A stretch of DNA of 64,000 bases from Stygiobacter sp. RIFOXYC2_FULL_38_25. Lineage in GTDB: Bacteria > Bacteroidota > Ignavibacteria > Ignavibacteriales > Melioribacteraceae. How positions within the stretch are numbered: the stretch's first letter is position 1; the number at the start of each line of letters is the position of its first letter. Shown here piece by piece: positions 32,796 to 49,683 of the stretch. The stretch covers positions 310,001-374,000 of the forward strand of contig MHAZ01000017.1 in the NCBI GenBank assembly GCA_001803165.1. The letters are read 5' to 3'. The translations under genes were made by a program, and so were the position numbers. Under the pieces are notes generated by a model that saw only the letters and a program-made list of their open reading frames with translations, searched no databases and was not told the DNA's origin.

Positions 32796-35700
32796 ATGAA
32801 AAAAATCCTATTTGCCTTCCTATTTCTTGTGCTTATTATTTCCTCTTGTAAACTAAAGGAAGACACAACCGGAACTGATCCTACAGGAACAACCTCAACC
32901 GCCATAAAAGTTTTAACACCAAACGGAAACGAAGTTTTGCCGGAAGGCTCATCTTACCAAATCACCTGGAGCGGAACCGGAACAACTCTGGTTAAAATTC
33001 AGTACAGTATTGATAACGGCACATCATGGTCTTTGGTTGTTGATAGTTTAACAAACACCGGAGTTTATAGCTGGTTCCCGGTTCCAAATACAATCTCCAA
33101 TCAATGCCGGCTTCAAGTAACAAGCGTTGATGGAAAGAGCACAGACGCTAGTGATAATGTTTTTTCAATTGTCAGAAACAGCAATCAAAGTTTAAAAATA
33201 GTTGCACCAAAAGATAAAGAAGAATGGGAAGGCGGTAGCGCCAAACAAATTAAGTGGTTTAGTTCCGGAATTGATTCTGTAAAAATTGAATACACAACCA
33301 ACAACGGCACCAAATGGAATTTAGTTGCTGTTGATAAAAAGAATACCGGCATTTTCTATTGGGAACCGGTGCCTAATACTCCTTCTACCTTAGCAAGAGT
33401 TAGAATAATGGATGCAAAAGATGGCGAGCCTTCTTCCGAAAGCGATGTGTTCAACATTCTACCTGAACCTAAAATTAAAGTGATAGCTCCTAACGGCGGA
33501 GAAAGAATTCTTTCTTCTACAAGCAGAAAAATTGAATGGGTAACTGAAAATATTGAAAATGTTAAGCTTGCCTATACAACCAATAATGGTTTTGAGTGGG
33601 TTGTTATTAAAGATGCTGTCCCTTCTACCGGATTTTATATTTGGGATCCGGTTCCAACAGCAAACTCTCAGCTATGTAAGATTCGTGTTTATGATGCAAA
33701 AGATAACGAGCCTTCGGATGTTTCCGATAGTACCTTTACAATTACAAATCAAATCACTCAAACACTTGAAGTAACCGGACCAAACGGAAGTGAAAGATGG
33801 CAAGCCGGAACAAATCAGCAAATCACATGGAAATCAAGCGGTGTTGCAAAAGTTAAAATTGAACTAACATCTAACAACGGTTTAACCTGGAACACAATTG
33901 TTGATCAACTTGCAAATACCGGCGCTTACGAATGGAACGTTCCAAACTCAATTTCCACTCAATGCTTAATTAAGATTAGCGATGCAGATGATAGCGATCC
34001 GGTAGATCAAAGCAACGGCTTGTTTAGAATTGTTCCAAAACCCGAATTAAGAATTACAAAGCCAAATGGCGGCGAAACATGGACTGCCGGAATTATTGAT
34101 ACTATTAAATGGAATTCTGTAGGTGTGGAAAATGTAACGATTGAGTTCACACCAAATAATGGTACCAACTGGTTCACGATTGTAGAAAAGACTCCATCCA
34201 GCGGAAGTTACATTACAAGCTTATCTACTGCCGGAACTCAATATAAAATTAGAATTACTGATAAAGAAAACGGCTCTCCGCAAGATGAAAGCGACGGAAC
34301 GTTTACAGTTTCGGCGGAACCAAAGATTGTTGTTCTTGAACCAAATGGAAAAGAAGAATGGTATGCCGGCTCTTCGAATAATATTAAGTGGACTTCAACA
34401 AATATTGAAAACGTGAAGATTGAATACACTACTAATAACGGTGCAAGCTGGACTTTAATTACTTCATCTACTCCGAGCGATGGAGTTTATTCGTGGGATA
34501 AAATTCCTAATGTAAGTTCATTGCAATGTAGAGTTAGAATAAGTGATGCTATAGATAACATTCCGTCTGATGTTTCTGATGATAACTTCAGCATTACAAC
34601 TCAAGGAAATCAGTTGATAAAAGTTGTTAAACCGAATGGCGGTGAGAACTGGCCTCTTGGCTCACCTCAAGAAATTACCTGGGATGCCGCCGGAATTACA
34701 AATGTTAAAATTGAGTACACAATTAACAACGGCTTGAATTGGAATTTGATTACAGCGAGCACGCCAAGTACCGGTTATTATACATGGACACAAGTTCCAA
34801 ACACTCCTGCAACAAACTGTAAAGTGAGAATAAGCGATGCACAAGACTCCGCGCCATCCGATGAAAGCGATCTCTTCTTTACAATCGGGACAGCGCCTTC
34901 GTTAAAAGTATTAGAACCAAACGGTAATGATACCTGGATAAGCGGTACAACTAAACAAATCCGGTGGTCATCGGAAAACGTTGCAAATGTTAAAATTGAA
35001 TACACGATTGATGGCGGCGCAAGCTGGAATGTAATTGTTAATTCAATGCAAAGCACAGGCAGCTATTACTGGAATAATATTCCGGCAATAAATTCGCTGC
35101 AATGCAAAATTAAAATTAGCGATGCGCAGTTCGGTACTCCTTCGGATCTATCCGATGACAATTTTGCAATTATGAAACCGGGTGATCAGCAATTGAAAGT
35201 TAAGACTCCAAACGGAGGAGAAAAATGGATTGCCGGAACTCCTCAAAATATAACTTGGGATGCCGGTGGAATTGCGAATGTTAAGATTGAGTTTACAAGT
35301 AACAACGGAATTAGCTGGAATACAATTATCGAAAGTACACCAAGCGATGGTTTCTATACATGGACTCAAGTTCCAAACACACAAGCAACAAATTGCCTTA
35401 TCAGAATAAGTGATGCTCAAGATAACGAGCCATCAGACGTTAGTGATAATTTCTTTAGTGTAGATGTTGAACCATCGCTTAAAATGGTTGCACCAAACGG
35501 CGGAGAAGTTTGGTCAAGCGGTTCCAGCAAAGAAATTCGTTGGACAAGTTCCAACGTAGCGACCGTAAAAATTGAGTTTACTACTAATGGTGGTGCATCC
35601 TGGGCTACAGTTGTTAATTCTATTGAAAACACTGGCTCATATCAGTGGTCAAACATTCCTAATGCAAATTCTTTGCTCTGCAAAGTAAAGGTTAGTGATG

Positions 35701-37055
35701 CGGACGATGGAAATCCTTTTGCGATTTCTGATAACTATTTCCAAATTTCTAATCAGATAGTTCAGACGATAAGAATTTTATCTCCGAATGGCGGAGAAAG
35801 CTGGCGTGAGCAACAAAACAGAACAATTACTTGGTCCTCTAACAGTATAAGTAAAGTTAATATTGAATATACAATCAACAATGGTCAGGTTTGGACTTCA
35901 ATAGTTTCAGATCTGCCAAGTTCCGGTTCTTACGAATGGCATATTCCTGCTGGTATCAATTCAACACAATGTAAAGTGAGAATCAGCGATGCTTCTGATG
36001 GTGATCCTTCTGATGAAAGTAACTCATCATTTGCTATACAGGTTACTCCCGAGATATCTGCCATTACTTTTCCAACTAACGGCGCTTCTATAATAGCCGG
36101 AGAACAAATTACAATTCAATGGGAATCAAAAGGAATTAGAAAAGTTAAAATTGAGTATAATAGAAATGATTTAAACCAGCCTTCGGATTGGTTTACTTTA
36201 GTTGACAGCTTAGATAACTCGGGATCATTCCCAACAACATTTAAGTATGATCCTTTAGCTACATCTTATGTAGTTAGAATTAGTGCTACAGACGGAAGTG
36301 CTTCATTGATGAGTGGAACATTTAAAGTATTACCGCCTCCTTCAGTATCAGTATTATCGCCAAATGGTGGCGAACAATGGCTGGCAACTCCGGCAGGTGC
36401 ATCAACTACTGATCCTCAGAAATACCATCCTTATGAAATAACTTGGCGTTCAACCAATGCTGAAAAAGTAAAAATTGAATGGTCAACAAATGGAGGTGGT
36501 TCTTGGTATTTGGTTCCTGGAGCCGAAGATCTTAACAGTACCGGATCATTTATTTGGGCGCCAGGAAGAGATGATCTTGTTAGACCGCAAAATTCTGATA
36601 ACTGTTTGATTAGAGTAAGTAGCTCAAGCGGTTCATCCGATATGTCTGATGCGAACTTTTCGATTCACGATACTAAAAAGATTAGAGTTGAGTATCCGAA
36701 TAGCGGTGAAGATTTTTATGTTGGTCATGCTGATAGATATGTTATGTTAATTTCTTGGACGAGCTATGCAATTCCAGGCAATGTTAAGATATTTTATAGC
36801 TTGCAAAACGGCGCTGAGGGTACTTGGGTTCAGCTCGCAGAAGTTAAATCTACAGGCGCATATGTATGGGATTACGCTAATGATCCATTAATTGGTACTA
36901 CAACGGTTTCAACTCAAGGAAAAATTAAAATTCAAGATGCAGTTGATGATAAAATCTGGGATGTAAACGATGTGGCATTCTGGTTGAATATTAAGAAGAC
37001 CAGCGGCAAAATCATCCAAGATGAGAATAAAATAAAAGGTAACACACAAAAATAA
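32796..37055 (+). CDS. Surface lipoprotein of 14 tandem Ig-like repeats
   Basis: 1419 residues. Signal peptide with lipobox LIISSCK (Cys18), a short TTGTDPTG spacer, then 14 repeats of ~94 residues. Each has the pattern PNGGE.W..G….I.W.S..I..VKIEYT.NNG..W..I, G.Y.W..VPN…CKVRISDA.D..PSD.SD..F.I, close to the Kre9/KNH-type Ig-like domain. Repeats 6-11 alternate long and short linkers, showing growth by duplication of two-domain units. There is no T9SS domain, so it is probably anchored by lipid and displayed on the surface. SD AGAGG precedes ATG 32796. A TAAATTTG -7-like box lies at 32749-32756. Confidence 0.9.
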   Translation: MKKILFAFLFLVLIISSCKLKEDTTGTDPTGTTSTAIKVLTPNGNEVLPEGSSYQITWSGTGTTLVKIQYSIDNGTSWSLVVDSLTNTGVYSWFPVPNTISNQCRLQVTSVDGKSTDASDNVFSIVRNSNQSLKIVAPKDKEEWEGGSAKQIKWFSSGIDSVKIEYTTNNGTKWNLVAVDKKNTGIFYWEPVPNTPSTLARVRIMDAKDGEPSSESDVFNILPEPKIKVIAPNGGERILSSTSRKIEWVTENIENVKLAYTTNNGFEWVVIKDAVPSTGFYIWDPVPTANSQLCKIRVYDAKDNEPSDVSDSTFTITNQITQTLEVTGPNGSERWQAGTNQQITWKSSGVAKVKIELTSNNGLTWNTIVDQLANTGAYEWNVPNSISTQCLIKISDADDSDPVDQSNGLFRIVPKPELRITKPNGGETWTAGIIDTIKWNSVGVENVTIEFTPNNGTNWFTIVEKTPSSGSYITSLSTAGTQYKIRITDKENGSPQDESDGTFTVSAEPKIVVLEPNGKEEWYAGSSNNIKWTSTNIENVKIEYTTNNGASWTLITSSTPSDGVYSWDKIPNVSSLQCRVRISDAIDNIPSDVSDDNFSITTQGNQLIKVVKPNGGENWPLGSPQEITWDAAGITNVKIEYTINNGLNWNLITASTPSTGYYTWTQVPNTPATNCKVRISDAQDSAPSDESDLFFTIGTAPSLKVLEPNGNDTWISGTTKQIRWSSENVANVKIEYTIDGGASWNVIVNSMQSTGSYYWNNIPAINSLQCKIKISDAQFGTPSDLSDDNFAIMKPGDQQLKVKTPNGGEKWIAGTPQNITWDAGGIANVKIEFTSNNGISWNTIIESTPSDGFYTWTQVPNTQATNCLIRISDAQDNEPSDVSDNFFSVDVEPSLKMVAPNGGEVWSSGSSKEIRWTSSNVATVKIEFTTNGGASWATVVNSIENTGSYQWSNIPNANSLLCKVKVSDADDGNPFAISDNYFQISNQIVQTIRILSPNGGESWREQQNRTITWSSNSISKVNIEYTINNGQVWTSIVSDLPSSGSYEWHIPAGINSTQCKVRISDASDGDPSDESNSSFAIQVTPEISAITFPTNGASIIAGEQITIQWESKGIRKVKIEYNRNDLNQPSDWFTLVDSLDNSGSFPTTFKYDPLATSYVVRISATDGSASLMSGTFKVLPPPSVSVLSPNGGEQWLATPAGASTTDPQKYHPYEITWRSTNAEKVKIEWSTNGGGSWYLVPGAEDLNSTGSFIWAPGRDDLVRPQNSDNCLIRVSSSSGSSDMSDANFSIHDTKKIRVEYPNSGEDFYVGHADRYVMLISWTSYAIPGNVKIFYSLQNGAEGTWVQLAEVKSTGAYVWDYANDPLIGTTTVSTQGKIKIQDAVDDKIWDVNDVAFWLNIKKTSGKIIQDENKIKGNTQK

Positions 37056-37098: not shown

Positions 37099-37171
37099 TG
37101 CCCCATAGTGTAATTGGCAACACGTCTGACTCTGGATCAGAAGACTTCAGGTTCGACCCCTGATGGGGCAG
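37099..37171 (+). tRNA. tRNA-Gln, anticodon CTG
   Basis: Acceptor stem TGCCCCA/TGGGGCA (37099-37105 and 37164-37170), discriminator G 37171, CCA not encoded. The anticodon stem TCTGA/TCAGA encloses loop CTCTGGA, giving anticodon CTG for CAG codons. T-loop GTTCGACC is intact. TATATTTG at 37079-37086 is a likely promoter box, with TTT rather than TTG at the upstream position. Confidence 0.97.
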
Positions 37172-37250
37172 CAATTTAAATCCTTGCGAAATAAAATTTG
37201 CGAGGATTTGCCTTTTTATCACTTGATGTGAATCATTTCATTAACATGGT

Positions 37251-37303: not shown

Positions 37304-40270
37304 ATGACAAACTCGATATTTAAATATCGTGGACAAATTTTAAAAAAACCGCTCGCTGTTCTAACCACACTATACTTAGTTATTAATGTTATACTTTTAG
37401 TTGTTGGTATTAGTTATTACAATTATGAAAAAGAAAAAGTTATAAATGACCGCTTCGCTTATCTGGAATCAATTTCGGATTTCAGGAAATCTCAGATTAA
37501 TGATTGGCTTAAAGAAAGATATGCTCAACTGGAAGTCCTCCGTGCTGATTCCCCGTTAATAAATAAACTTGGGACACTCACTTCTAACAGTTCCAAAGAA
37601 TTAAAAGAATGGTTTGAGGCACTAAAAACCTTCTATAAATACGATGATATAATTCTAGTTGGTCCCTCAAAGAAAATAATCTACAGCATATATTCGGAAA
37701 ACGCCAAGTTAAGCAACCTTGACTCTCTACTGTGTGAAAGTTCAAGCAATTCCAATTCAATAGTATTTTCAGATTCAGATGAGAAATTTGCTTCTCCAGA
37801 ATTTCTCAAATTTTATGTCCCACTCGGCTACACAACAAATATTCCTTTCAAGGCAAAGGATGTTTTAATCTTTTCAGTCGAACCGAACAAAATTTTTAAT
37901 GCCATGCTAAACCGGAATATTGATAAGTCTCCAACTCTGGAAACATTGCTGGTAAAACCCTATAAAGAAGGAATTGTTTATCTAAATACACTGAAGTTTG
38001 ATGTTGAGGGGAAAGAAAATAATCATAGTGCAAATAGAAAGGCATTGATAAAAGCCAACACCATGAAATCCAGAAGAGGTTTTATTGATGGTGTAGATTA
38101 TAAAAATGATGAAGTGATTGCTTTAATGAACAGGGTTCCATCTTCCATTTGGACTCTAATAACGAAAATAAACCAGTCAGAGTTTTACGCCCCGGTTAAT
38201 AATCTTGCCAAAATTGTTTTCTTAGCAATAATTTCTGCCGATTTGCTCTTTGCAGTTGTTTTCTTTTTCATTTGGCGAAAAAGCATTCTTGCCAATTACA
38301 AAAAAATGTATGCAGCAGAGATTGAAAAATCCAAACTGGAAAATCGTTTCGAATCTTTAGTTAACGGTGTAAAAGATTTGGCCATTTTTATAATGGATAG
38401 TGAGGGAAATATTACTTCGTGGAACGAAGGCGCTGAAATCATTGAGGGCTATTCTTCTGATGAAATTATCGGAAAGAACTTTTCAACTTTCTATTCAGAA
38501 GAGGAAAACAGAAATAATAGACCAAGCAAAAACCTAAAGCTCGCTCTCGAGAAGGGTAGCTATCAAGAAGAGGGATGGCGAATCAAAAAAGATGGAACTG
38601 CTTTTTGGGCTAATGTATTACTAACAGCTCTACAAGATGAGAATGGAAAAGTCTATGGCTTTTTGAAAGTTACGCGCGATTTAACAGAGAAAAAAAGAAG
38701 CGAAGAAGAAATAAAAAAATCGCGCGACTTTTATTTAAAACTTCTCGATGATTTTCCAACACCGGTTTGGCGCTCAGGATTAGATGGAAAATTTAACTAT
38801 TTGAATAAAGCGTGGCTCAATTATGTAGGAAGAAAAATTGAAGATGAGAATGGAGATGGCTGGACTTCGAACCTTCACCCAGATGAAAGGGAAAACACAG
38901 TTAAACTTTATCATGAATCTTTCCGGCAGAGAAAGAGTTTTACCCTTGAGCACAGATTGAAAGATTCGAATGGTGAATATAGATGGATGATAAATTTTGG
39001 AATGCCGTATTCCGATATGGAAAATAATTTTGCCGGTTATCTCGGTTCTTGCTATGATATTGATGATAGGAAAAAATATGAAGAGACCATCAATACGCTA
39101 TTAAGAATAGGGGAAAGACTTTATTCATCGCTGGAAATAAATCAAATTCTGGATTCGCTTGTAACGGAAAGCATTCATCTGGCAAGCGCTGAGAGCGGAT
39201 TTGCATGTATAAAGAATGAAGATGAATTTGTGATAGGAAGATATTATCACAAGGACCATTGGGAATATTACGACAAGAAATACCGGGTTGAAGATAAAAT
39301 TCTGAAACAGTTTGGCTCCAATAGAGAACCAATTTTGGCAAATGAACAAGCCAATCAAGAAAATATTGATAAAGAACTTGTGAACAGATATTCAGTAAGG
39401 CAAGCAATTTCAACACCGCTATTTGGCTCTAACGGGGAGCTAATGGGATTTTTTGAAATTCATAATAAAAAAGGAAATAAGGGATTCACCAAGGATGACA
39501 TTAATCTTCTAACTGCAGTAGCAAGAAATGCTTCTATCTCAATTGCCAAATCTTTGAACTACGAGCAGCTTCGCAAAGCTGAAACTCAATTACGAAACTC
39601 TGAATCTGAGCTTAGAAGTCTTGCCGCTCAAATTCAATATGCCCGCGAAACGGAAAGGCAGCACATAGCAAGAGAAGTTCACGATGAGTTAGGGCAGTTA
39701 TTCACAGGTATCAATCTAAATATTTCTCTTCTTACTGAAATGATTGAACAAAACCAAGAACCATCAGTTAGCGAAATAATTGATGAGCTGCATTCGGTTC
39801 AGCAGTTTGTGAACAAAGGTATTCAAACTGTGCGCGATATTTCCGGCAGCTTACGTTCTTACGTTCTTGATCATTTGGGATTAATACCCGCAGTTCAGGA
39901 ATACTGCCGGGAAATAGAAAGGATGAGCAATGTTACTTGTAACTTCAAGTCGGAAGTAGAGTCATTCAATTTTAACGATGAAAAAAATGTCGCGTTGTTT
40001 AGAATTATTCAAGAAGCTATTACTAATGTGCTTCGTCATGCCGAAGCAACGGTAATTAATGTGATGATCAGCCAAAAGGAAGGCAGTCTTGAAATTGGTA
40101 TTACAGACAATGGAAAAGGAATGCCGGAAAGTAAAGAAGCAATAACAAATTCAATGGGAATTCTTGGTATGAAAGAGCGTGCTATATTTCTTAAAGGGAA
40201 ATTGAAGATTGACAGTGTGACAAATGAAGGAACCAAAATTCACCTCTCCATTCCGGTTGAAAAACTATAG
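37304..40270 (+). CDS. Membrane sensor histidine kinase (PAS-PAS-GAF-HisKA_3-HATPase)
   Basis: 988 residues. Two membrane helices (near 18-40 and 300-325) enclose a ~260-residue extracytoplasmic sensor. Then come PAS 1 (~345-465, ends VTRDLTEKKR), PAS 2 (~475-590, DFPTPVWRSGLDGKFNYLNKAW), GAF (~600-755) and a HisKA_3 domain with the phosphorylated His793 in REVHDELGQLFTG. The ATPase domain has FRIIQEAITNVLRHAEA and GITDNGKGM, ending GTKIHLSIPVE. This NarX/DegS-like type pairs with LuxR-type regulators, and one follows 12 bp later. The signal sensed is unknown. Confidence 0.95.
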   Translation: MTNSIFKYRGQILKKPLAVLTTLYLVINVILLVVGISYYNYEKEKVINDRFAYLESISDFRKSQINDWLKERYAQLEVLRADSPLINKLGTLTSNSSKELKEWFEALKTFYKYDDIILVGPSKKIIYSIYSENAKLSNLDSLLCESSSNSNSIVFSDSDEKFASPEFLKFYVPLGYTTNIPFKAKDVLIFSVEPNKIFNAMLNRNIDKSPTLETLLVKPYKEGIVYLNTLKFDVEGKENNHSANRKALIKANTMKSRRGFIDGVDYKNDEVIALMNRVPSSIWTLITKINQSEFYAPVNNLAKIVFLAIISADLLFAVVFFFIWRKSILANYKKMYAAEIEKSKLENRFESLVNGVKDLAIFIMDSEGNITSWNEGAEIIEGYSSDEIIGKNFSTFYSEEENRNNRPSKNLKLALEKGSYQEEGWRIKKDGTAFWANVLLTALQDENGKVYGFLKVTRDLTEKKRSEEEIKKSRDFYLKLLDDFPTPVWRSGLDGKFNYLNKAWLNYVGRKIEDENGDGWTSNLHPDERENTVKLYHESFRQRKSFTLEHRLKDSNGEYRWMINFGMPYSDMENNFAGYLGSCYDIDDRKKYEETINTLLRIGERLYSSLEINQILDSLVTESIHLASAESGFACIKNEDEFVIGRYYHKDHWEYYDKKYRVEDKILKQFGSNREPILANEQANQENIDKELVNRYSVRQAISTPLFGSNGELMGFFEIHNKKGNKGFTKDDINLLTAVARNASISIAKSLNYEQLRKAETQLRNSESELRSLAAQIQYARETERQHIAREVHDELGQLFTGINLNISLLTEMIEQNQEPSVSEIIDELHSVQQFVNKGIQTVRDISGSLRSYVLDHLGLIPAVQEYCREIERMSNVTCNFKSEVESFNFNDEKNVALFRIIQEAITNVLRHAEATVINVMISQKEGSLEIGITDNGKGMPESKEAITNSMGILGMKERAIFLKGKLKIDSVTNEGTKIHLSIPVEKL

Positions 40271-40282
40271 AAAGGTAAAACG

Positions 40283-40918
40283 ATGAATATTGCAATTACA
40301 GATGACCATGAGATTATTAGAGAAGGCTTAAAAAAAATACTGGCAAAACATGATGATCTTAAAGTTGTTGCTGAAGCATCGAGCATTGCAGAATTGGAAA
40401 AATTGCTGGACGAAACGCAGATTGATTTCATAATGCTTGATATTTCTCTGCCGGATAAAAGCGGTTTGGATTTTGTGAAAGATATTAAAGCACGTTTCCC
40501 CGAAGTTAAGGTCTTAATATTCAGCATATATCCAGAAGAGAAATTTGCGAAGAGAGCAATTAATTTGGGTGCAGACGGATACTTGAGCAAAAATGCAAAG
40601 CCGAGCGAAATCATTGAAGCAATTAGAAAAATTGAAAGGGGTGGAAAGTATTTAAAAGCCGAACTCATCGAAGAACTTTTCTTGCACAATGATAAATTAC
40701 ACACTAATCCTACTCATGAGCTGCTTTCCAACAGAGAATTTGAAGTGCTCAGATTGTTAGCCAAAGGAAATAAAATTACAGAGATTGCTGAATCTTTGGG
40801 ATTAAGCGTTAACACAATTGCATCATATAAAACAAGGATACAGGATAAGCTAAATATAAAATCCACAGCAGAATTGATACGCTATGCAATTGATAACGAC
40901 TTAGTGGAAAAATATTAG
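40283..40918 (+). CDS. NarL/LuxR-family response regulator
   Basis: 211 residues. Receiver domain with phosphoacceptor Asp53 (IMLDISLPDKSGLDF) and acidic pocket ITDDHE, followed by a LuxR-type helix-turn-helix (LLSNREFEVLRLLAKGNKITEIAESLGLSVNTIASYKTRIQDKL). It is the partner of the kinase upstream. The first genes downstream share a 48-bp upstream element that it could bind; this is inference. Confidence 0.96.
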   Translation: MNIAITDDHEIIREGLKKILAKHDDLKVVAEASSIAELEKLLDETQIDFIMLDISLPDKSGLDFVKDIKARFPEVKVLIFSIYPEEKFAKRAINLGADGYLSKNAKPSEIIEAIRKIERGGKYLKAELIEELFLHNDKLHTNPTHELLSNREFEVLRLLAKGNKITEIAESLGLSVNTIASYKTRIQDKLNIKSTAELIRYAIDNDLVEKY

Positions 40919-40963
40919 CGAAATTTAAGAACTGCTGCTTAACCAGACACCTCATTTTATTCT

Positions 40964-41011
40964 TGCCGTATAATCGACCACATTTTTTATCAAGAAACTA
41001 CTACATACAAA
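40964..41011 (+). promoter_or_regulatory. Conserved 48-bp upstream element, copy A
   Basis: Matches 42971-43018 without gaps at 39 of 48 positions by eye. Best conserved are TGCCGTA, CGACCACAT and ACTACATACAAA. It lies 138 bp before the lipoprotein gene at 41150, outside any coding region, and could hold the promoter and a regulator site. Confidence 0.6.
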
Positions 41012-41149
41012 ATCCCTCCCCGGCTGTAGATTGTAGACGCAATTGCAGACGAGAATTTGCTGATCAAGATTAAACAACTGATAAGTACTGGATAATTGAA
41101 AATTTTGCATCACTTTTAATTATTTCTTAAATAATTAATAAGGAGTACC

Positions 41150-41596
41150 ATGAGACTCATCGTTTTTATTTCAACATTATTTATTACTGCCGGGTGCAGC
41201 TCGGTAATGCTTCAGCCCGTTGACTTTTCTTGGCCTGTAGAAACTGTGCTAAAAGTAAATCAAAACGGGCAAGTATCGGAAGACAGGTATGCTTTTGATA
41301 TTAACGTAAAACCAATTTTTTACGAAGAATTCGAAGATTCAAACTCGGTTGCCGGAAGGGAAATCAGAGTTATACGCGACCGCGCCGGTCATTACTATTT
41401 CACCGGGTCAGGCTTCAAAAATATTTATCTCTTTATGCCGGTTGAAGGTGGGATGAAATTAGCTGATAAAATAAACATATCAGATTCACTTACTCTTAAA
41501 ACGCCAGTGTTCAATCAGAAATCAACTAATGTGGAACTGATTGACGGACCGAACAAATATTCGGTTATTGGCAAAGAAATTGTGAGGACGAAATGA
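41150..41596 (+). CDS. Predicted lipoprotein, unknown function
   Basis: Not recognised. 148 residues: signal peptide and lipobox FITAGCSS (Cys16), then a beta-rich domain (QPVDFSWPVETVLKVNQNGQVSEDRYAFDINVKPIF, HYYFTGSGFKNIYLF). Probably anchored in the envelope. First gene after the conserved 48-bp element; its stop overlaps the next start (ATGA, 41593). Confidence 0.75.
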   Translation: MRLIVFISTLFITAGCSSVMLQPVDFSWPVETVLKVNQNGQVSEDRYAFDINVKPIFYEEFEDSNSVAGREIRVIRDRAGHYYFTGSGFKNIYLFMPVEGGMKLADKINISDSLTLKTPVFNQKSTNVELIDGPNKYSVIGKEIVRTK

Positions 41597-42828
41597 AAAC
41601 AAAAATATTTCTCGGTATTCTATTCTTGTTTGTAATAAGTGCTTCCATATTTGCACAATCGGATTATGAGACTGTGCAAAATTTTAAGAGGCAGCACAAA
41701 CAGATAGTGGAGGCGATAAAAAATGCTGTTTCACCGGATGATTGCAATATCATAGAGGAAAAGATTAATAATCTTAGAAATGAATTTGAGGGCAATAAAG
41801 CATTGCTCGATAAAGCTCTATACCCGGATAATTTTGAATCGTCTTTTGAAAAAATTGAAAGCGCTTTTCAATCAAAAAGAACTGATTTAGCCCAGATAAA
41901 CATTTTAACTACTCAAGTCGGAACGCTTCAAGAGCAAGTTCTAATGTTGAATCAAAAAAATGAAGATTTGATGAAACGTATTAGCGACCTGACTTTGAAA
42001 TCGGAAAAAGATCAGGCGGATATTGCTAATCTCAAAAAACTTGTTTCGCAATTAAGAGGAAATATAAATCAGAGAGATTTACTTGTTCGTGATCTTGTGG
42101 ATAGCCTGCTTGTCGAATTCATAAAGTCGCCGGAAGAAATGACCCAGAAAGAAAGACGTGTCATTATCACTAAGATTAATAAAGGCAATTTGTTTAATAA
42201 CATTAAGCGAACAATAGAAGACAACATCCGTTTTACTAATGTAACACAGATGACTGCTGATGATTTTTCAAAAATGAAAAAGCAGCAGCGCAACTTTGAT
42301 AAAGTTTGGAAGCAAATTGGACCGAGATTAAGCAGTGTTTATCTCAAGGAGAAGAATAAGAAGTTGGAAATTTCTCAAATCGACACCTTGTTTGTTCAAT
42401 GGAACAATCAGATGAATAACGAAATTTGGAGAAGTATCCATTCATTATTCATGGAAAAAAATATTAATCTGATCTCTTTCAACAACTCTAACCAGTTTGT
42501 TGATAAGGTGTGTTCATTTATTGACGAACAAATCAAAGATCTTGATGTTAAAAGTACAGATGAATCGGAAGAAATTTTTCACACATTCACGGATAGTGTT
42601 TATTTCAAAACTGTCGAGAAGAAGTGGATTCCGGTTCTACTTGAAAATAACATGATGACTCAAACTGAAAAAGATCTTATTGATGGAAAAATAAATGAAT
42701 GGAAAAATGAAATTACTCCATCGTATGCATATTTAGGATTCATAATTGTAGGAGTTATAATTATTGCAGCAGTTTTATATGCCTACAAGAAAACGAAAAA
42801 AGCATCGTCCAAACCGGTTACATCCTAA
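41593..42828 (+). CDS. Exported coiled-coil protein with C-terminal membrane helix
   Basis: Not recognised. 411 residues: signal peptide (IFLGILFLFVISASIFAQ), helical domain, a coiled coil (~95-160: TTQVGTLQEQVLMLNQKNEDLMKRISDL), more helices and a C-terminal membrane anchor (YLGFIIVGVIIIAAVLYAY) with a Lys-rich tail. It should lie in the periplasm, held to the inner membrane. It is coupled by a 4-bp overlap to the lipoprotein gene, so the two probably form a complex spanning the envelope. Confidence 0.75.
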   Translation: MKTKIFLGILFLFVISASIFAQSDYETVQNFKRQHKQIVEAIKNAVSPDDCNIIEEKINNLRNEFEGNKALLDKALYPDNFESSFEKIESAFQSKRTDLAQINILTTQVGTLQEQVLMLNQKNEDLMKRISDLTLKSEKDQADIANLKKLVSQLRGNINQRDLLVRDLVDSLLVEFIKSPEEMTQKERRVIITKINKGNLFNNIKRTIEDNIRFTNVTQMTADDFSKMKKQQRNFDKVWKQIGPRLSSVYLKEKNKKLEISQIDTLFVQWNNQMNNEIWRSIHSLFMEKNINLISFNNSNQFVDKVCSFIDEQIKDLDVKSTDESEEIFHTFTDSVYFKTVEKKWIPVLLENNMMTQTEKDLIDGKINEWKNEITPSYAYLGFIIVGVIIIAAVLYAYKKTKKASSKPVTS

Positions 42829-42856
42829 GAGTGATAGCCGGCACACTAACCCTTTC

Positions 42857-42885
42857 AATCCCGCTTTTTTAGCGGGATTTTTTTT
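42857..42885 (+). terminator. Rho-independent terminator
   Basis: Stem ATCCCGCT/AGCGGGAT, loop of T, then eight T residues; ends the two-gene operon 41150-42828. Confidence 0.9.
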
Positions 42886-42970
42886 CAATAACATGAGACA
42901 AAACCTTCGTTTTTGAGCGAAAAAAGAGATTTATCAAAAAATGAAATCATCCTAAAACATTCCTTAACTC

Positions 42971-43018
42971 TGCCGTAAAACCGACCACATCGTTTTGCAA
43001 GTAATCACTACATACAAA
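42971..43018 (+). promoter_or_regulatory. Conserved 48-bp upstream element, copy B
   Basis: Pair of 40964-41011 (39 of 48 identical). It lies 58 bp before the stand-alone receiver gene that heads the 43077-48455 gene run, after the terminator of the previous operon, so a promoter here is expected. Confidence 0.6.
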
Positions 43019-43076
43019 CTTGATAGCTGCGGTTAAATTAGCTCCCGGAAATTCAATAATTCAAGGACAAGTAAAA

Positions 43077-43484
43077 ATGAATATTCTGGTTGTTGACGCG
43101 GTTAGTGAAGTTAGGAGAAAATTAATAAAGTACTTACAGCTGGAAGAAAAGTTTCATTACGTGTTTGAAACCCAAACCGTAAAAGAAGCACAAAGGATCA
43201 TGGGAACAATAAGGATTGATGTGATCATATTCGATATACAACTACCTGATAAATCCGGTTTAGATCTGATGATGTTACGGCATAAACTTGTTTATAAGCC
43301 GGTAACGATAGTTTGTTCAAATTACGGCTGGCCGCAATACCTAAATGCGTATGATAATTTGTCTGTTGATTACTTCTTCGATAAATCAACAGAACTTCTC
43401 GAATTGAAATTATTCATCAAAAATCTGGTGGATAAAAGCGACGACTATTCCAGTGTATTTAGTCATAATCATAATTTCAACTAA
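43077..43484 (+). CDS. Stand-alone response-regulator receiver protein
   Basis: 135 residues, one receiver domain, no output domain. Asp53 lies in IIFDIQLPDKSGLDLM, almost the same sequence and position as in the regulator at 40283, but the N-terminal acidic pair is changed (NILVVDAVSEV, one Asp rather than two), so metal-dependent phosphorylation may be weak. The usual late Lys is present near FDKST. I take ATG 43077 with AAGGA upstream; the longer TTG frame from 43020 would run into the conserved element. It leads a run of lipoprotein genes. Confidence 0.85.
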   Translation: MNILVVDAVSEVRRKLIKYLQLEEKFHYVFETQTVKEAQRIMGTIRIDVIIFDIQLPDKSGLDLMMLRHKLVYKPVTIVCSNYGWPQYLNAYDNLSVDYFFDKSTELLELKLFIKNLVDKSDDYSSVFSHNHNFN

Positions 43485-43506
43485 ACTAAAAATATAGGAG
43501 GCTGAC

Positions 43507-44556
43507 ATGAAGCGTTATTCTGCTTTCATTGTATCATTCACAGTAATAATAATTACAGCTTTAGCGGTTAATGGCTGTAAAGACCCTTTCGATATTAACG
43601 AACCGCAATCCGTTAACAGTAGTGAAACACAAAAATTTATGAAAATTGCGGAAAGTAGTTCTTCTGTTAACTCTTTCACCCCAAATTATAATGAAGAACA
43701 AGCTATGGCTCTAGCGGGTGCACTTGGGAAAAACCTTTATCCAATCCGGATTGGACAAAAAATGAAACTTGTGGATAAAAGTTTAACTCTTGTAAAAGAC
43801 AGTACGACAGCAACCGGAACTCTAGTTCAAAAATTTGACGGGCAATTAATAATTCAAGGCTCGTTCCAGGAGCCTACAATCGGTATGAACTCTCATGTGG
43901 ATACAACCATAACTAAGAATTTTTCCACAACGGTTACCAGAAAAATTCAATTCAAAAAAATTGCTAACTCAGGCAACGACACAATTGACTGGAAGGTAAA
44001 TGCTGTTTCTCTTTCCAGCGGAGGAACTGCCGGGGATAATATTCAAATTGTAAAACTAATTCTTACCACTCAAGATGGAACCGAAGTGGTGATAGATGAT
44101 CCGAATACATTTTTCTTCAAAGCCGGAAAAGAAAAGAAGTATAAAGATCACGATGAAGATGAAGAGGAAGAAATGGATGATAATGACAACCATGGATTTG
44201 AAGCCGGGTTCAGCATTGGTGAACACGGTTGGAAAAACCTGCTTACATGGTACAGAAAAAATCAACCAATAAAACTTACTGTTGAAATCTTAAGCAGATC
44301 AGCGGATCCGGATTTCATCACTGTTACTTACGGTGCAATGATGTACGGCAATTCGAGATCGAAAGAAAAATTTAATTTGGTATCCAGCAATCAGGAAGGA
44401 TCTTATTATAGAAAGATTTATGAAAGGAAATTGTACACTCATTCTTTTGCTGCAAGAATGCACGCTGTAGTAAATGCTTTACCGAGAAACGTAGTGTACG
44501 ATACCGACACGAGCGTTGAAGAAAAAACATGGGGAATTCCATACAGAGTTAAATAG
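43507..44556 (+). CDS. Predicted lipoprotein with acidic patch, unknown function
   Basis: Not recognised. 349 residues; lipobox LAVNGCKD (Cys24). Beta-rich domain in the middle (TATGTLVQKFDGQLIIQGSF, TTVTRKIQFKKIANSG) and a striking acidic run (HDEDEEEEMDDNDNHG, near residues 217-232) that could bind cations such as Ca. Then FEAGFSIGEHGWKNLLTWYRK. Probably an envelope protein of the same operon as its neighbours (22 bp after the receiver gene). Confidence 0.7.
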   Translation: MKRYSAFIVSFTVIIITALAVNGCKDPFDINEPQSVNSSETQKFMKIAESSSSVNSFTPNYNEEQAMALAGALGKNLYPIRIGQKMKLVDKSLTLVKDSTTATGTLVQKFDGQLIIQGSFQEPTIGMNSHVDTTITKNFSTTVTRKIQFKKIANSGNDTIDWKVNAVSLSSGGTAGDNIQIVKLILTTQDGTEVVIDDPNTFFFKAGKEKKYKDHDEDEEEEMDDNDNHGFEAGFSIGEHGWKNLLTWYRKNQPIKLTVEILSRSADPDFITVTYGAMMYGNSRSKEKFNLVSSNQEGSYYRKIYERKLYTHSFAARMHAVVNALPRNVVYDTDTSVEEKTWGIPYRVK

Positions 44557-44607
44557 TTTTTTGAAAAGAAAAAATTAACTAATAATAAATTAAAGGAGGA
44601 CATAACA

Positions 44608-45942
44608 ATGCTAAATCTAAAAAAACATATAGTTCGCTTGCTCTTTTCGGCAGTTATAACAGCTTCACTTTTTGTAACTGCATGTTCAAACGATGATAAC
44701 CCGGTTGACTCTACCGGCGGAACTGCCAAAGTAGCGGGCAGAATATCATCCGGTAACAGTATGGCTAAAGTTTTGAGTAAAACCGGAAATACTGAAACAA
44801 CTGCTTCGGTTCAAGGTGCAGTAGTTGTACTGGCTCAAGTTCAGGCAGATGGTTCATTGAAGACAGTTTCTAATCAAAGCGTTCAGACGGATGTTTCCGG
44901 AAAATTTGTTGTAGAAACAAATCTTAGCGGCGCAAATAATCTCGTTGTAGTAGCAACTCAAGGTGCGGCTGAATGGAAAGCAATTGTTTCGGCAACTGTA
45001 CAAAGCGGTAGTACTGTTTACGCTCCGCCGCTTAGTGTTGAATCTACTACCGAGACTAACCTCTATATCAAATTGGTAAGTCAGGGTCGTGCAAACAATA
45101 TTGATGCTGCTGACCTTAAAATTTTGTTAAGCGCTCAGGGTGCTGCTCATATTGGCGGTAACGCAAATGCCGAAGCTGAATTCATCAATGCGTTGCAAGC
45201 TCAATCGCAAGCTACCGTTCAAGCTTCCGGTAATTCGTATTTTGGATTATCGAGCAGTCAAATTCAAGCAATGTTGCATGCTAAAGCAGAAGCAAAAGCA
45301 AAGTTAGATGCCGCATTATATAATTCCGGCGATACCGAAGATGAAGCTGAGAACGATATTAACGAATATGATGGGTGGGTTTGCACAAATAGCAGCGTTA
45401 ACGCAAAAGTACATGCTGAATTGATGAGGATAGGTGTTACAACCTTTCTCAATGCAACTGCATCAATGAGTGCCAATGGAAGATTAGCTATAGCAAAATC
45501 TTTTTATAAGAGATATGCATTTGTACTTAGTATTGCCATGAAGCAGCAATTCCAAGCAGCCGGCGCTTCGGATGCTCAAATTAGCTCTGTTAATTCTGCA
45601 GGCAGCTCGTTATATGCTTCGATCAAAACTTCTAACGACTTGAATCAAATAGCAGATGCTTTTGCTCAATATCATTCTACTGTAAAGGCTCAGTTAAAAA
45701 TTACTTTGGCATCTTATGCTAATGCAATTGAAACAACGGATACGAGCATTAACACAACTGCATCAGCCAAAACAGTTTTAAGTACTTCGTTAGGCGGAAC
45801 AATTTCACTCGACGCTATTATCAACGCTTACGTAGCATTCTTTAATTCGGTTAAATCAACTACTCAGGTAACTCTTGTTGGTGCGACATCAACTCAAGTA
45901 AGTGCAGCTACTCAAATTATGATTCTGGCAAATATGAATTAA
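44608..45942 (+). CDS. Predicted lipoprotein, alanine/serine-rich, unknown function
   Basis: Not recognised. 444 residues; lipobox FVTACSND (Cys25). An N-terminal Ig/carboxypeptidase-regulatory-like domain (AKVAGRISSG… VQGAVVVLAQVQADGSLKT…VQTDVSGKFVVETN) is followed by a long Ala/Gln-rich helical part. Strong Shine-Dalgarno AAAGGAGG precedes the ATG. It probably belongs to the surface protein set with the genes on either side. Confidence 0.7.
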   Translation: MLNLKKHIVRLLFSAVITASLFVTACSNDDNPVDSTGGTAKVAGRISSGNSMAKVLSKTGNTETTASVQGAVVVLAQVQADGSLKTVSNQSVQTDVSGKFVVETNLSGANNLVVVATQGAAEWKAIVSATVQSGSTVYAPPLSVESTTETNLYIKLVSQGRANNIDAADLKILLSAQGAAHIGGNANAEAEFINALQAQSQATVQASGNSYFGLSSSQIQAMLHAKAEAKAKLDAALYNSGDTEDEAENDINEYDGWVCTNSSVNAKVHAELMRIGVTTFLNATASMSANGRLAIAKSFYKRYAFVLSIAMKQQFQAAGASDAQISSVNSAGSSLYASIKTSNDLNQIADAFAQYHSTVKAQLKITLASYANAIETTDTSINTTASAKTVLSTSLGGTISLDAIINAYVAFFNSVKSTTQVTLVGATSTQVSAATQIMILANMN

Positions 45943-45951
45943 TTAATAGTT

Positions 45952-45981
45952 AGCGGAACCGGAAAAGCCGGTTCCGTTGTT
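45952..45981 (+). terminator. Terminator-like hairpin
   Basis: Stem CGGAACCGG/CCGGTTCCG with an AAAAG loop, followed by a weak T-rich stretch (TTGTTT). It may attenuate rather than stop transcription into the DUF5666 gene. Confidence 0.6.
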
Positions 45982-46034
45982 TAGAAATTAAAAAGCTAAA
46001 CTAAGTGAATAAATTATTTAAGGAGATTATTACA

Positions 46035-48455
46035 ATGTCAAAACTATATTACTCTTTGAGTGGAAAGGTCGGAAGTGTAATAGTCCTTCTGATCGTTTCC
46101 TTTTTATTTCTATCGGTAAATCAAACTAAAGCTGATGGCGGTGTTGAGGTAACCGGATCAATTCAAGTGAAGACAGATTCGAGTATAACAGTAAACTCAT
46201 TGGAATTTTTAGTCAATTCATCAACTAAGATTTCCGGAACTATGGGCAGTAGTTTACCATTTGATAGCCTTAAGGTTGGTAGTTTGGTCAAAATTGAAGC
46301 TGAGTCAAAAATTATTGGCAAACTTGTTGCAACAAAAATTCGTTTAATGACGGCTAAGATAAACCTCGAGTTAAATGGGAAAATAACAGCGCGTACTACA
46401 AATTCGATAACTGTTAAAGGAACCGAAGTATTTGTAGATACCAACACAATCATATTCACGCAATTTCATGCAGCACTTAGCTTTGCAGATTTGAAAGTCG
46501 GCGACAGTGTTTTAGTGAAAGCAACTCAAGCGATAGGCGGTCAATTAACTGCCGTGGCTATAATCGTGAAGACGGAAAATACCAGGCAAGAAATTGAGCT
46601 TGAAGGAAAGATTCAGGCTATCACAGAAACATCAATTAAAGTGCAAGACACTGTGTTTTTCGTTGACAGCTCTACAATCATTCTATCTCATCAAAAAACA
46701 GTTCTTAATTTCGGCGATTTGAAAGTTGGTGACGAAGTAGAGGTAAGAGGGTTCTTGCGTCAAGATTCTACTTATCTGGCTTTATACATTCGTGTTGAGA
46801 ATGAGGAGTTTGAGCAAAGGGAATTAGAAATAGAAGGAGCTATAAGCGCAATTGCTTCCAACAGCATTACTGTAAACATGGTAACTTTTAAAGTTGACTC
46901 CAGTACAGTGATATACGCTCACGAAGGGGGAGTTTTAAACTTCTCAGATTTGAAAGTAGGAGACCAGGTTGAAGTTAAAGCTATTCTACTTAGCGATAGT
47001 ACCTATAAAGCCGTTAGAATTAAATTGGAAAATGAAGAATCTGATAATGAACTGGAAGTTGCCGGCTTAATTGATTCCGTAAGTACCGACAATATTATTG
47101 TTGGCGGTTACAAAATTTATGTTAATAGTCAGACCAAGATATATAATCACTTTAAGCAGAGTCTAACTTTTGCAGATTTGAAAGTGGGAACCTTTGTTGT
47201 AGTTAAAGCGAATTTACAAAATACTACTTATCTCGCAGCAACAATAAAGGTTAGAAACAATATTAACGCGGAATCTAATTTTACCGGCGCAATAGAATCC
47301 ATAAGCGGAAGTTCTATTACGGTTAAAGGATTAATCTTTGTCACGGATCAGAACACAGAATTTTTGGATGACAACCGGAACACAATTACGATAAGTGATT
47401 TGAAGGTAGGTCAGATTGTAAAAATTAAAGCTACGCTTCAAAGTGGAAACCAATATTTAGCTCTCAGAGTTATAGCAAAGAATTTCTGGCGTCCAACAGT
47501 TAAAGTTGAAGGAGCTATTGAAAACTTAACCCTTACTTCCATTACTGTTATGGGAAAAACTTTCGCGGTAGATTCATCAACTATTGTAGTTGGGCACGGA
47601 ACCGGAGTAATCACTTTTGCCAGTCTAACTTTAGGATTGAATGTTGAAGTGAAAGGGTCCTTAACTACCGCCGGAGTCTTAACAGCTAAACTAATCAAGG
47701 TTCATCCGGATCATGAATTTGAAGTACACGGTAAGATTGATACTCTTTCTGCAAATCAGTTTGTAGTCGCCGGATTAACAATCAAGACTGATCAGAATAC
47801 TGTTTATTACGATGAGTTTGATAAACAAGTAACTTTCGATAGCCTTAAAGTCAATCAGTTGGTAGAAGTTAAATATGTTAAGACAGTAACAAACGAAAAT
47901 CTTGCCGTTAAGGTTGAGATTGAAAAGGATCCTCATACTGTTCAGTTCAACGGAGTTGTAACTGCAACCAGTGCAAACAGCATTCGTCTCTCGATTCCTT
48001 CATTCTCGTTAACAAGCAATACAGTATTTATTAGTTCAACTTACTCTCCTGTTCAATCTGCTTCAATTAAGGTTGGACAAAGTGTAACGGTTTGGGCGGA
48101 TCAATCACCGAGCGGAAATTTACAAGCGGTTCAGGTTCAACAAATATCCGCAGTAGTAACAGATCTTGAAGGGAATAAAGATAACCTCCCGGTTTCTTAT
48201 GAGTTGAAACAGAACTATCCTAATCCGTTTAACCCAACTACCGAAATTGCATTTACTTTGGCAAACCAAGAAAATGTGAGCTTAGTGGTTTATAACATTA
48301 TTGGTCAGGAAGTTGCAACTTTGATAAGCAGCCCGATGAGTGCGGGTTCTCATGCTGTTAAATTCAATGCAGCTAATCTATCATCCGGAATTTATTTATA
48401 CAGATTGAAAGCCGGAAATTTTGTTTCAATTAAGAAAATGATTCTTCTCAAATAA
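46035..48455 (+). CDS. T9SS-secreted protein of nine DUF5666 repeats
   Basis: 806 residues. Signal peptide (VIVLLIVSFLFLSVNQTKA), then nine ~75-residue repeats with the DUF5666 pattern: G.I..I…SITV.G..F.VDSST.I, F.DLKVGD.VEVKA, Y.A..I.V. The C-terminal ~85 residues are a T9SS sorting domain (LKQNYPNPFNPTTEIAFTL, VYNIIGQEVATLI, SSGIYLYRLKAG…KKMILLK). The short repeats suggest an OB- or SH3-like extracellular scaffold. I take ATG 46035 with AAGGAG upstream; an earlier in-frame GTG is less likely. Confidence 0.88.
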   Translation: MSKLYYSLSGKVGSVIVLLIVSFLFLSVNQTKADGGVEVTGSIQVKTDSSITVNSLEFLVNSSTKISGTMGSSLPFDSLKVGSLVKIEAESKIIGKLVATKIRLMTAKINLELNGKITARTTNSITVKGTEVFVDTNTIIFTQFHAALSFADLKVGDSVLVKATQAIGGQLTAVAIIVKTENTRQEIELEGKIQAITETSIKVQDTVFFVDSSTIILSHQKTVLNFGDLKVGDEVEVRGFLRQDSTYLALYIRVENEEFEQRELEIEGAISAIASNSITVNMVTFKVDSSTVIYAHEGGVLNFSDLKVGDQVEVKAILLSDSTYKAVRIKLENEESDNELEVAGLIDSVSTDNIIVGGYKIYVNSQTKIYNHFKQSLTFADLKVGTFVVVKANLQNTTYLAATIKVRNNINAESNFTGAIESISGSSITVKGLIFVTDQNTEFLDDNRNTITISDLKVGQIVKIKATLQSGNQYLALRVIAKNFWRPTVKVEGAIENLTLTSITVMGKTFAVDSSTIVVGHGTGVITFASLTLGLNVEVKGSLTTAGVLTAKLIKVHPDHEFEVHGKIDTLSANQFVVAGLTIKTDQNTVYYDEFDKQVTFDSLKVNQLVEVKYVKTVTNENLAVKVEIEKDPHTVQFNGVVTATSANSIRLSIPSFSLTSNTVFISSTYSPVQSASIKVGQSVTVWADQSPSGNLQAVQVQQISAVVTDLEGNKDNLPVSYELKQNYPNPFNPTTEIAFTLANQENVSLVVYNIIGQEVATLISSPMSAGSHAVKFNAANLSSGIYLYRLKAGNFVSIKKMILLK

Positions 48456-48476
48456 CTTTTCCAATATGTGTTCAGC

Positions 48477-48514
48477 GGAGGATGAGTTGCTTCAGGCTTA
48501 TCCTCCCTCTTATT
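48477..48514 (+). terminator. Probable terminator after the DUF5666 gene
   Basis: Stem GGAGGATGAG/CTTATCCTCC (one G-T pair) with a ten-base loop, followed by CTCTTATT. The T-run is weak. Confidence 0.5.
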
Positions 48515-48545
48515 AACTATATTCCAAAATTATCTTGGTGTAAAA

Positions 48546-49040
48546 ATGAAAAATTACTTTTATGCGTTACTGTTTGTTTTAATTATATCATCAACAATAT
48601 CTACCCAAGCGCAGAGTAAAAAATTTGGTCTGGGTGTAATTTTTGGAGAACCAACCGGCTTGAGCGCAAAGTTATGGCTATCCAATACTAATGCATTAGC
48701 TTTTGGATTGGGCTGGTCTGTACAAGGTTACCGCTTTAATGGCTTCGATTCCGATTACGACAGAGTAACTCGAACACATATTCATGTTGATTATCTCTGG
48801 CATTCTTTTAATGCTATAAGTTCCAGCCGGGAATTCCCTCTATTCTATGGAATTGGCGGAAAAATAAATACCGGTCCGGAATATAGCGGTACATTTGGTG
48901 TGAGAGGTGTTATAGGAATTGCCTGGCTGCCTCGCTCTACGCCGTTGGATATTTTTATAGAAGTTGTTCCAACTCTCTTACTTGTTAATTCAACCGGTCT
49001 TGGCATAGATGCCGGAATAGGCGCGCGATTTTTCTTCTGA
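48546..49040 (+). CDS. Small exported beta-barrel-like protein
   Basis: Not recognised. 164 residues: signal peptide (YALLFVLIISSTISTQAQ), then Gly-rich amphipathic strands (FGLGVIFGEPTGLSAKLWLSNTNALAFGLGW, FYGIGGKIN, IAWLPRSTPLDIFIEVVPTLLL) ending in aromatic residues (GIGARFFF), as in small outer-membrane porin-like proteins. Probably an outer-membrane protein. Confidence 0.7.
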   Translation: MKNYFYALLFVLIISSTISTQAQSKKFGLGVIFGEPTGLSAKLWLSNTNALAFGLGWSVQGYRFNGFDSDYDRVTRTHIHVDYLWHSFNAISSSREFPLFYGIGGKINTGPEYSGTFGVRGVIGIAWLPRSTPLDIFIEVVPTLLLVNSTGLGIDAGIGARFFF

Positions 49041-49104
49041 TATTATTAGGAATTTATTTCTCTGTGCTAATTGCTCTATAACATTAAAAGTGAATCATTC
49101 CAGC

Positions 49105-49683
49105 ATGATTATAAAAATCACTACATGGGTTTTTGTTTGCTTGATGTTGATGGCTGTTTTCTCATGCAGCAGCTCAAGGATAAATGATGATATTAATGGC
49201 AGTTTTGAAAATGATTCCGAAGGAGAAAACCCGGACGGATGGTTTGCCAATAATTTGCCGCTAACCCGAAAGTATGCAAAGTTATCGGTAGATAATTCAA
49301 CATTCCATAGCGGAGATAAATCAATTTTAATTTCTATTTCTGATCATCACCCGAAGGAAATAACAGTTTACAATTGGATAAGAAGAATAGATGGATTAAA
49401 AGTTGGAGATAATTATGAACTGCAAGGATGGGTTAAAACTGAACAGTTGAAAAGCCCACCTTTTATAGAAGTTCAATTCTGGAACAGCTCTCAGATGATT
49501 GGTACGGCATCTACAACGCGAGGATATTTAATCACCGGAACGAAAAACTGGCAGCATGTAAAAACAATTTTCAGTGTTCCTAATGGTACATCAAAAATTT
49601 TGATAAGAGCAGGAATCAGCAGCAGTAGAAATAATGGGGGAAAAGTTTGGTTTGATGATATTCAAATCCAAAATGTGGAATAA
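49105..49683 (+). CDS. Lipoprotein with carbohydrate-binding-like jelly-roll domain
   Basis: 192 residues from ATG 49105 (a GTG at 49090 would add five). Lipobox VFSCSS. The mature part is a beta jelly-roll: NGSFENDSEGENPDGWFAN, FHSGDKSILISISD, YELQGWVKTEQL, HVKTIFSVPNGTSKILIRAG, GKVWFDDIQIQNV, the pattern of CBM4/9-like domains. It may bind surface or matrix glycans; no catalytic domain is attached. Confidence 0.75.
   Translation: MIIKITTWVFVCLMLMAVFSCSSSRINDDINGSFENDSEGENPDGWFANNLPLTRKYAKLSVDNSTFHSGDKSILISISDHHPKEITVYNWIRRIDGLKVGDNYELQGWVKTEQLKSPPFIEVQFWNSSQMIGTASTTRGYLITGTKNWQHVKTIFSVPNGTSKILIRAGISSSRNNGGKVWFDDIQIQNVE

Follow-up and report, generated by a model that had tools for sequence, protein, structure and literature searches.

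Lone receiver proteins that restrain the kinase of their own pathway are known from Alphaproteobacteria. According to published accounts, FixT of Sinorhizobium shows no detectable phosphorylation in vitro, represses FixL autophosphorylation, and is induced by its own pathway (PMC7078487). Osp of Rhodobacter sphaeroides remains functional with its Asp replaced, inhibits its kinase, and is likewise induced by its own pathway (PMC9430884); a 2025 review groups the two proteins (PMC12471899). A comparable arrangement is present in a 64,000-nucleotide stretch of contig MHAZ01000017.1 from Stygiobacter sp. RIFOXYC2_FULL_38_25 (hereafter the window). Here, genes for a histidine kinase (HK), a response regulator (RR), and a lone receiver (rec) lie with those for a set of envelope proteins at positions 37304-49683, and a 48-bp putative operator is followed by an apparent operon with rec as its first gene, an order that matches the circuit logic of FixT and Osp. 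With slightly better than even confidence, this cluster is interpreted as a two-component system that controls its own adjoining set of envelope and surface proteins and in which rec damps the HK.

All genes from 37304 to 49683 are on the + strand, as are all features described below, in the order HK, RR, lip148, coil411, rec, lip349, ala444, a DUF5666 protein exported by the type 9 secretion system (T9SS), omp164, and a CBM-like lipoprotein; labels such as lip148 and lip349 are provisional and were coined from protein type and length. An earlier sequence-only reading had reported a two-component pair, a lone receiver, lipoproteins, and a nine-repeat DUF5666 T9SS cargo between 40283 and 49683. 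All of these features are present, and the start is amended, the unit beginning with the HK at 37304. Gene-order conservation, which that reading had proposed to examine, was assessed in 146 related genomes (Melioribacter/Ignavibacteria), counting the source genome, a 4.4-Mb draft in 22 contigs (G000). Neighborhoods of lip349 were inspected in 40 stretches, which represent 37 of the 84 matching genomes and were taken top-scoring first, and those of ala444 at 25 matches, 15 of them in additional stretches.

The cluster, designated type A, is co-linear in 13 of the 146 genomes, a few contigs being cut, with the order HK-RR-(lip148-coil411)-rec-lip349-(ala444)-DUF5666/T9SS-omp164-(cbm), where members in parentheses are not always present. 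Eleven of the 40 lip349 stretches are of this type; the remaining two genomes are the source genome and G006, whose stretch (L169) has no lip349 and was reached through the ala444 search. The cluster is split across two contigs in G068 and G075, and HK-RR is visible in 12 of the 13 genomes, the contig of G002 starting inside coil411. Related layouts comprise A' clusters (L167 and L168; HK-RR-rec-ala444), type C clusters (L122 of the source genome and L170; HK-RR-rec-subtilase-subtilase-ala444), and C' clusters (L179 and L180; omp164-ala444-HK-RR-rec).

The HK (37304-40270; 988 amino acids) has a PAS-PAS-GAF-HisKA_3-HATPase_c architecture assigned with Pfam and has orthologues in the type A loci. 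It adjoins the RR (40283-40918), which consists of a Response_reg domain and a GerE domain with a LuxR-type helix-turn-helix. HisKA_3, HATPase_c, and both regulator domains score above Pfam cut-offs, as expected of a NarL/FixJ-type two-component system. Two transmembrane segments, recognized by eye, flank a periplasmic region of the HK, and a match to dCache stays under the Pfam cut-off. The RR pocket (DD/D/S/K) is intact in the window and complete in all 23 RR rows of the pocket table. Given that the complete sensor regions are 40-65% identical among A and A' kinases, compared with 12-13% against C and C' kinases, the A and A' kinases probably share a signal.

The lone receiver (43077-43484) is a single Response_reg domain of 135 amino acids without an output domain, as assigned with Pfam. 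Its best start is the ATG at 43077, backed by the aligned starts of relatives, and the open frame begins with TTG at 43020. The acceptor Asp, Ser, and Lys of the pocket are present, and Ala takes the place of the second of the acidic residues that follow strand 1. Of the 12 type A receivers in the pocket table, 11 carry A, G, or S at this position and one carries E; the G068 receiver is excluded from the table as it is cut by a contig end. Elsewhere the residue is N in both A' receivers, R in both C' receivers, and D in both type C receivers; in seven other pairs from the source genome it is D in six and N in one. The acceptor Asp itself is replaced by Glu in L167. The acidic pair of a receiver pocket coordinates Mg2+. 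The same is stated for the corresponding acids in work on Osp (PMC9430884). With the second, Mg2+-binding acid missing from all but one of the 12 type A receivers, rec is probably phosphorylated poorly, although it still has Asp, Ser/Thr, and Lys. For the same reason, and with every RR pocket intact, the most likely role of rec is that of a FixT/Osp-like feedback inhibitor of the HK rather than a phosphate sink.

The sequence-only reading had offered a phosphate-sink or partner role, of which the sink is weakened and a phosphorylation-independent partner fits better. As a sink or competing substrate, rec would still be phosphorylated by the HK and would drain the RR or sense pathway activity. 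Such a role would agree with the acceptor Asp, Ser/Thr, and Lys that all 12 type A receivers retain, and with the intact pockets of both type C receivers and of six of the seven other own-genome pairs. It is nevertheless considered unlikely: the complete pocket expected of a sink, Mg2+-binding acid pair included, is absent from 11 of the 12 type A receivers, the second acid is also missing from both A' and both C' receivers, and L167 carries Glu as acceptor. A similarly low probability is given to rec being a positive or scaffolding partner, either as a heterodimer with the RR or as an adaptor to envelope machinery, and not an inhibitor. The motif (S/T)NY..PQY, conserved in all 11 rec rows, and the joint inheritance of RR and receiver described below would suit a partner, and a lone receiver acting on an enzyme has been reported (PMC12802240). 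No target protein was linked to rec, however, and feedback accounts at least equally well for its first-gene position in the output operon.

The segment LPDKSGLD, which the sequence-only reading had noted as nearly the same in RR and rec, is identical in 8 of 8 letters; the origin of rec by duplication of the adjacent RR that it drew from this is not borne out. Overall identity between rec and the window RR is 26%, and the best own-genome match of rec (E 3.4e-19) is a lone receiver that adjoins a different RR, the window RR reaching only 4.5e-9. The genome has 109 receiver matches, and a tree was built from 54 receiver domains, taken from the window and 20 own-genome stretches. In it, lone receivers on contigs C12 and C3 and a long-branched one on C11 fall together with the window rec, and the window RR groups with the RRs adjoining the C12 and C3 receivers. 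For nine neighboring RR/receiver pairs, the two distance matrices agree (Mantel r 0.45; 2 of 20000 permutations as high). Homology search, tree, and Mantel test therefore all reject the adjacent RR as the closest own-genome relative of rec. By these comparisons, RR and receiver are inherited as pairs, not singly, and rec is therefore not a copy of its neighbor. The nine pairs of a NarL-type RR with a lone receiver lie on C17, C12, C3, C4, C9, C16, C6, and C11 (two). The C3 pair is located in a chemotaxis operon, and visual inspection showed dyad-like sequences between the two genes of the C4 pair and of the C16 pair.

The shared upstream element noted in the sequence-only reading proved to be a 48-bp sequence whose two copies, on own-genome pattern search and weight-matrix scoring, lie beyond chance. 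Copy A (40964-41011) is 5' of lip148-coil411 and copy B (42971-43018) is 5' of the lone-receiver operon; the two are 81% identical and were recovered by pattern, model, and matrix searches alike. A pattern allowing up to three mismatches found only these two copies in the 4.4-Mb genome, and a reversed control pattern found 0. With a weight matrix derived from 13 other-genome sites, leaving out those of the window and of L041, the window sites scored 60.4 and 60.2 and the next best place in the window -4.0. Controls reached at most 6.5 in 57 cassette-free stretches and at most 16.5 in 60 first-order resamples of the window, and the A' sites, at 20.0-31.2, exceed both.

Additional searches were run over the 146 genomes with a model of 17 sites (A3/R1), 38 candidates being scored per genome. 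These returned 19 sites at E <= 4.4e-8, exclusively in the 13 type A genomes. The next matches, at 3.9e-5 (G071) and 2.6e-4 (G025), both fall at A' HK-RR-rec-ala444 clusters, and among the matches listed the rest have E >= 6.1e-4 and resemble noise, 140 of 146 genomes having some at E <= 1. The strong sites precede the lone-receiver operon and, where the pair is in the cluster, also lip148-coil411. A genome-wide regulon was considered and is unlikely, no strong site lying beyond the cassette in the source genome or the 146 relatives under strict filters that may miss weak sites. Site number tracks payload, with two sites in six of the seven genomes that contain lip148-coil411 (the seventh being the cut G002) and one in all six that do not. 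Given this relation, and that the pair otherwise stands alone as a two-gene unit (5 of 5 loci examined, L244-L248), a lip148-coil411 copy appears to have entered the cluster, bringing its own operator copy. A second copy of this pair, outside the cluster, is present in the source genome (L244).

Separate homologues of the payload proteins, which the sequence-only reading had named as grounds for refutation, do exist, yet these proteins co-occur in this cluster. Matches to lip349 were found in 84 of 146 genomes, the source genome included, where the type A copy is the sole one. Close relatives occur in ten named metagenome-assembled genome records (Melioribacter 5, Ignavibacteria 2, Bacteroidetes 2, bacterium 1). 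Relatives of coil411 were found in 89 of 146 genomes, and those of ala444 in 23 of 146 and in 43 of 395 genomes sampled across the phylum. The payload is best read as copies of separately encoded families gathered under one switch. That the genes are merely neighbors without common function, their order persisting through too little elapsed time, would agree with the independent homologues and the varying payload but is quite improbable: order is held at 50-75% lip349 identity, the upstream flanks differ in gene length and strand between L042, L043/L044, and L046, and the operator was duplicated along with the lip148-coil411 pair.

A TAnnTT box follows the terminal CATACAA of the element after a gap of exactly 16 bp in 18 of 19 type A sites inspected. 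These comprise the 17 sites of the model set (16 with the box) and two on split contigs, likewise in register counting from CATACAA; the sole site without TAnnTT at +16 is that of L058, CATATTTG. By site inspection, the boxes of the window lie at 41027-41034 and 43034-43041, and the background frequency of TAnnTT in the window is 0.006 per position. Both ala444-side sites of the A' clusters carry the box, and none was found after the four C/C' sites. The distance from operator to the aligned rec ATG is 48 bp in 7 of 12 cases, with a range of 39-58. The -7 box of Flavobacterium psychrophilum occupies -12 to -5 and has the sequence TAnnTTTG, a variant class having TAnnTTGY instead (PMC9723704). 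The type A sites resemble such flavobacterial sigma-A promoters in having TAnnTT downstream of the operator, several A-sites reading TAnnTTG, a comparison confined to the -7 box (PMC9723704). Given the fixed 16-bp spacing, the element and its box are read as an operator and promoter devoted to the adjacent RR. That the element is instead an RNA leader, or otherwise not the operator of this RR, is very improbable despite its position 5' of both gene groups and on the coding strand every time, as the box at fixed distance downstream implies that the element precedes the transcription start, the consensus fold amounts to -0.12 kcal/mol with one doubly changed pair, no Rfam match at gathering scores was found at the element, and strong sites are confined to the 13 cluster-bearing genomes.

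In the proposed mechanism, the membrane HK would phosphorylate the NarL-type RR, as is typical of these families. The RR would then bind the 48-bp operator, which lies upstream of the observed TAnnTT box, and would activate two putative transcripts, the first encoding lip148-coil411 and the second rec-lip349-ala444-DUF5666/T9SS and probably genes onward. As the first product of transcript 2, rec, with its eroded Mg2+ site, would most likely bind the HK and damp its kinase activity in the manner of FixT and Osp. The other products, predicted from their signals to be lipid-anchored or T9SS-exported, would alter the cell surface.

Several observations weigh against this mechanism. The residues retained in the type A receivers make some phosphorylation possible, and the type C receivers (L122 and L170) have an intact pocket. 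Pairing of RR and receiver is imperfect, in that raw identity places the C3 receiver nearer to that of C4 (34%) than to the window rec (22%). The payload is variable: lip349 is missing from G006 and the A' clusters, and ala444 from the cluster in G044 and G021. In G021 (L069, 9667-10245), lip349 is moreover broken by one TAA within the match, with rec and DUF5666 open. The internal symmetry of the operator is modest (best direct repeat at 23 bp, best inverted centre at column 15), and the rec-side sites of L167 and L168 lack the TAnnTT box. Finally, the top scores of operator-like sites are 7.1 in the C clusters and 8.8 in the C' clusters, near the real-DNA background of 6.5 and under the resample maximum of 16.5. 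Because these scores do not exceed the controls, no operator is claimed for the C and C' clusters.

The payload itself consists largely of proteins without assigned families, with lip148, coil411, lip349, ala444, and omp164 all giving no match above Pfam or NCBIfam cut-offs. Lipobox cysteines were read by eye in the products at 41150, 43507, 44608, and 49105. The small lipoprotein lip148 (41150-41596) is followed by coil411 (41593-42828), which has a signal peptide, a coiled coil, and, by eye, a C-terminal transmembrane anchor. Structure prediction had been suggested for the products at 43507 and 44608, among others, and gave models from which no function follows. The AF2 model of lip349 (43507-44556; 39-row alignment, mean pLDDT 78.3) is beta-rich, with an unmodelled loop at about residues 211-241 whose type A consensus is acidic; alignment A1 omitted L058 (partial) and L069 (broken). 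Its structural matches are to generic beta-sandwiches only (best Foldseek 6.9e-4, RhoGDI; VIA Z <=7.1, rmsd 3.2, 124 residues). For the lipoprotein ala444 (44608-45942), the high-confidence model (24 rows, mean pLDDT 87.0) comprises a transthyretin-like N-terminal domain and a long Ala-rich helical domain. CarboxypepD_reg was matched at E <= 0.1 in 13 of 24 members, the window's own not among them. VIA matches (Z <=6.8; 3e8v, rmsd 3.1, 82 residues) cover the N-terminal domain. A whole-model Foldseek search gave no match at E <= 1e-3, and the helical part, which was not searched alone, had no clear PDB match. With structural matches either generic or absent, no function can be assigned to lip349 or ala444.

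The protein encoded at 46035-48455 contains nine DUF5666 repeats, as does that of L041, and ends in a Por_Secre_tail/TIGR04183 sorting domain. In a search confined to SprA among the T9SS components, SprA was found in the source genome (1030.9 bits together with a neighbor), consistent with a T9SS cargo. No literature on DUF5666 function was found in titles and abstract openings. Downstream lie omp164 (48546-49040), a small exported protein that is possibly a barrel by eye, and a lipoprotein with a CBM_4_9-like domain assigned with Pfam (49105-49683), which is often but not always a member of the cluster.

Additional features adjoin the cluster or its families. Upstream, 32796-37055 encodes a 1419-amino acid protein with Kre9/KNH Ig-like domains and a Reelin subrepeat match, and tRNA-Gln (37099-37172) lies immediately 5' of the HK; a tRNA-Lys is 5' of the C12 cassette described below. 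A tRNA-linked island was rejected, as no tRNA was found in the 12 other-genome stretches of the 13 scanned, a weak test in that some begin at or shortly before the HK. A different context for lip349 paralogues, termed type B (L053, 6684-14455, and 27 other stretches among L050-L080), resembles an order-wide envelope operon. In 28 of the 29 non-type-A stretches, the paralogue is followed by a 305-amino acid lipoprotein, and in 27 a 670-amino acid protein (transglutaminase core; barrel-like by eye) and a 227-amino acid protein are present; a CHASE2/sigma-54 activator assigned with Pfam is upstream in 21. Three type B products gave no match above Pfam cut-offs.

In summary, the analysis supports the original proposal of an undescribed envelope system: the genes are conserved together, share a linking element, and appear to be under joint control. 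Titles and abstract openings on Melioribacter two-component systems and on Ignavibacteria regulator-lipoprotein operons do not treat this locus, and a literature search on single-domain response regulator feedback in Bacteroidetes returned nothing. At this locus, regulation in a little-studied lineage can be examined in a two-component system that has a long operator to itself, a receiver co-inherited with the RR yet eroding, and an output made up entirely of envelope proteins. The locus also places three uncharacterized, widespread envelope families (ala444, coil411, and lip349) under one candidate switch. Should the anti-kinase role of rec be true, feedback of the FixT/Osp type would extend from Alphaproteobacteria to Bacteroidota and would be recognizable in sequence by a receiver placed behind the operator and missing its second acid. 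A broader and more tentative proposal is that degenerate receivers have repeatedly lost their metal site and now act as induced anti-kinases in HK-RR-rec cassettes of Bacteroidota, which may serve as exchangeable control heads for DUF5666, subtilase, and ala444 surface sets copied from separate envelope families.

One close comparison lies within the source genome, where a paralogous cassette on C12 (147602-160229; L122, 5602-18229) encodes HK, RR, rec, two S8 proteases, a T9SS protein, and ala444; the subtilase scanned there ends in a T9SS tail and also matches SLH. This cassette shares the order of the window cluster and an ala444 paralogue but differs in its subtilase/T9SS payload, its intact receiver pocket, and the absence of a significant operator copy. 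Like FixL-FixJ-FixT of Sinorhizobium and Caulobacter, the window cluster combines an HK, a FixJ-type RR, and a single-domain receiver that may be induced by the pathway (PMC7078487). Unlike FixT, rec heads a putative output operon of surface proteins and is a candidate inhibitor; the likeness drawn here is one of arrangement, and rec has one Cys, whereas Caulobacter FixT has a four-Cys motif. The likeness to CckA-CtrA-Osp resides in a receiver-like protein short of acidic Mg2+-binding residues and in the conserved regulator site located 54 bp before the osp start codon (PMC9430884). By contrast, Osp has lost both acids and the Lys, and rec retains the first acid, the Asp, and the Lys; the CckA pathway also runs through a phosphotransfer protein, and osp is presumably monocistronic.

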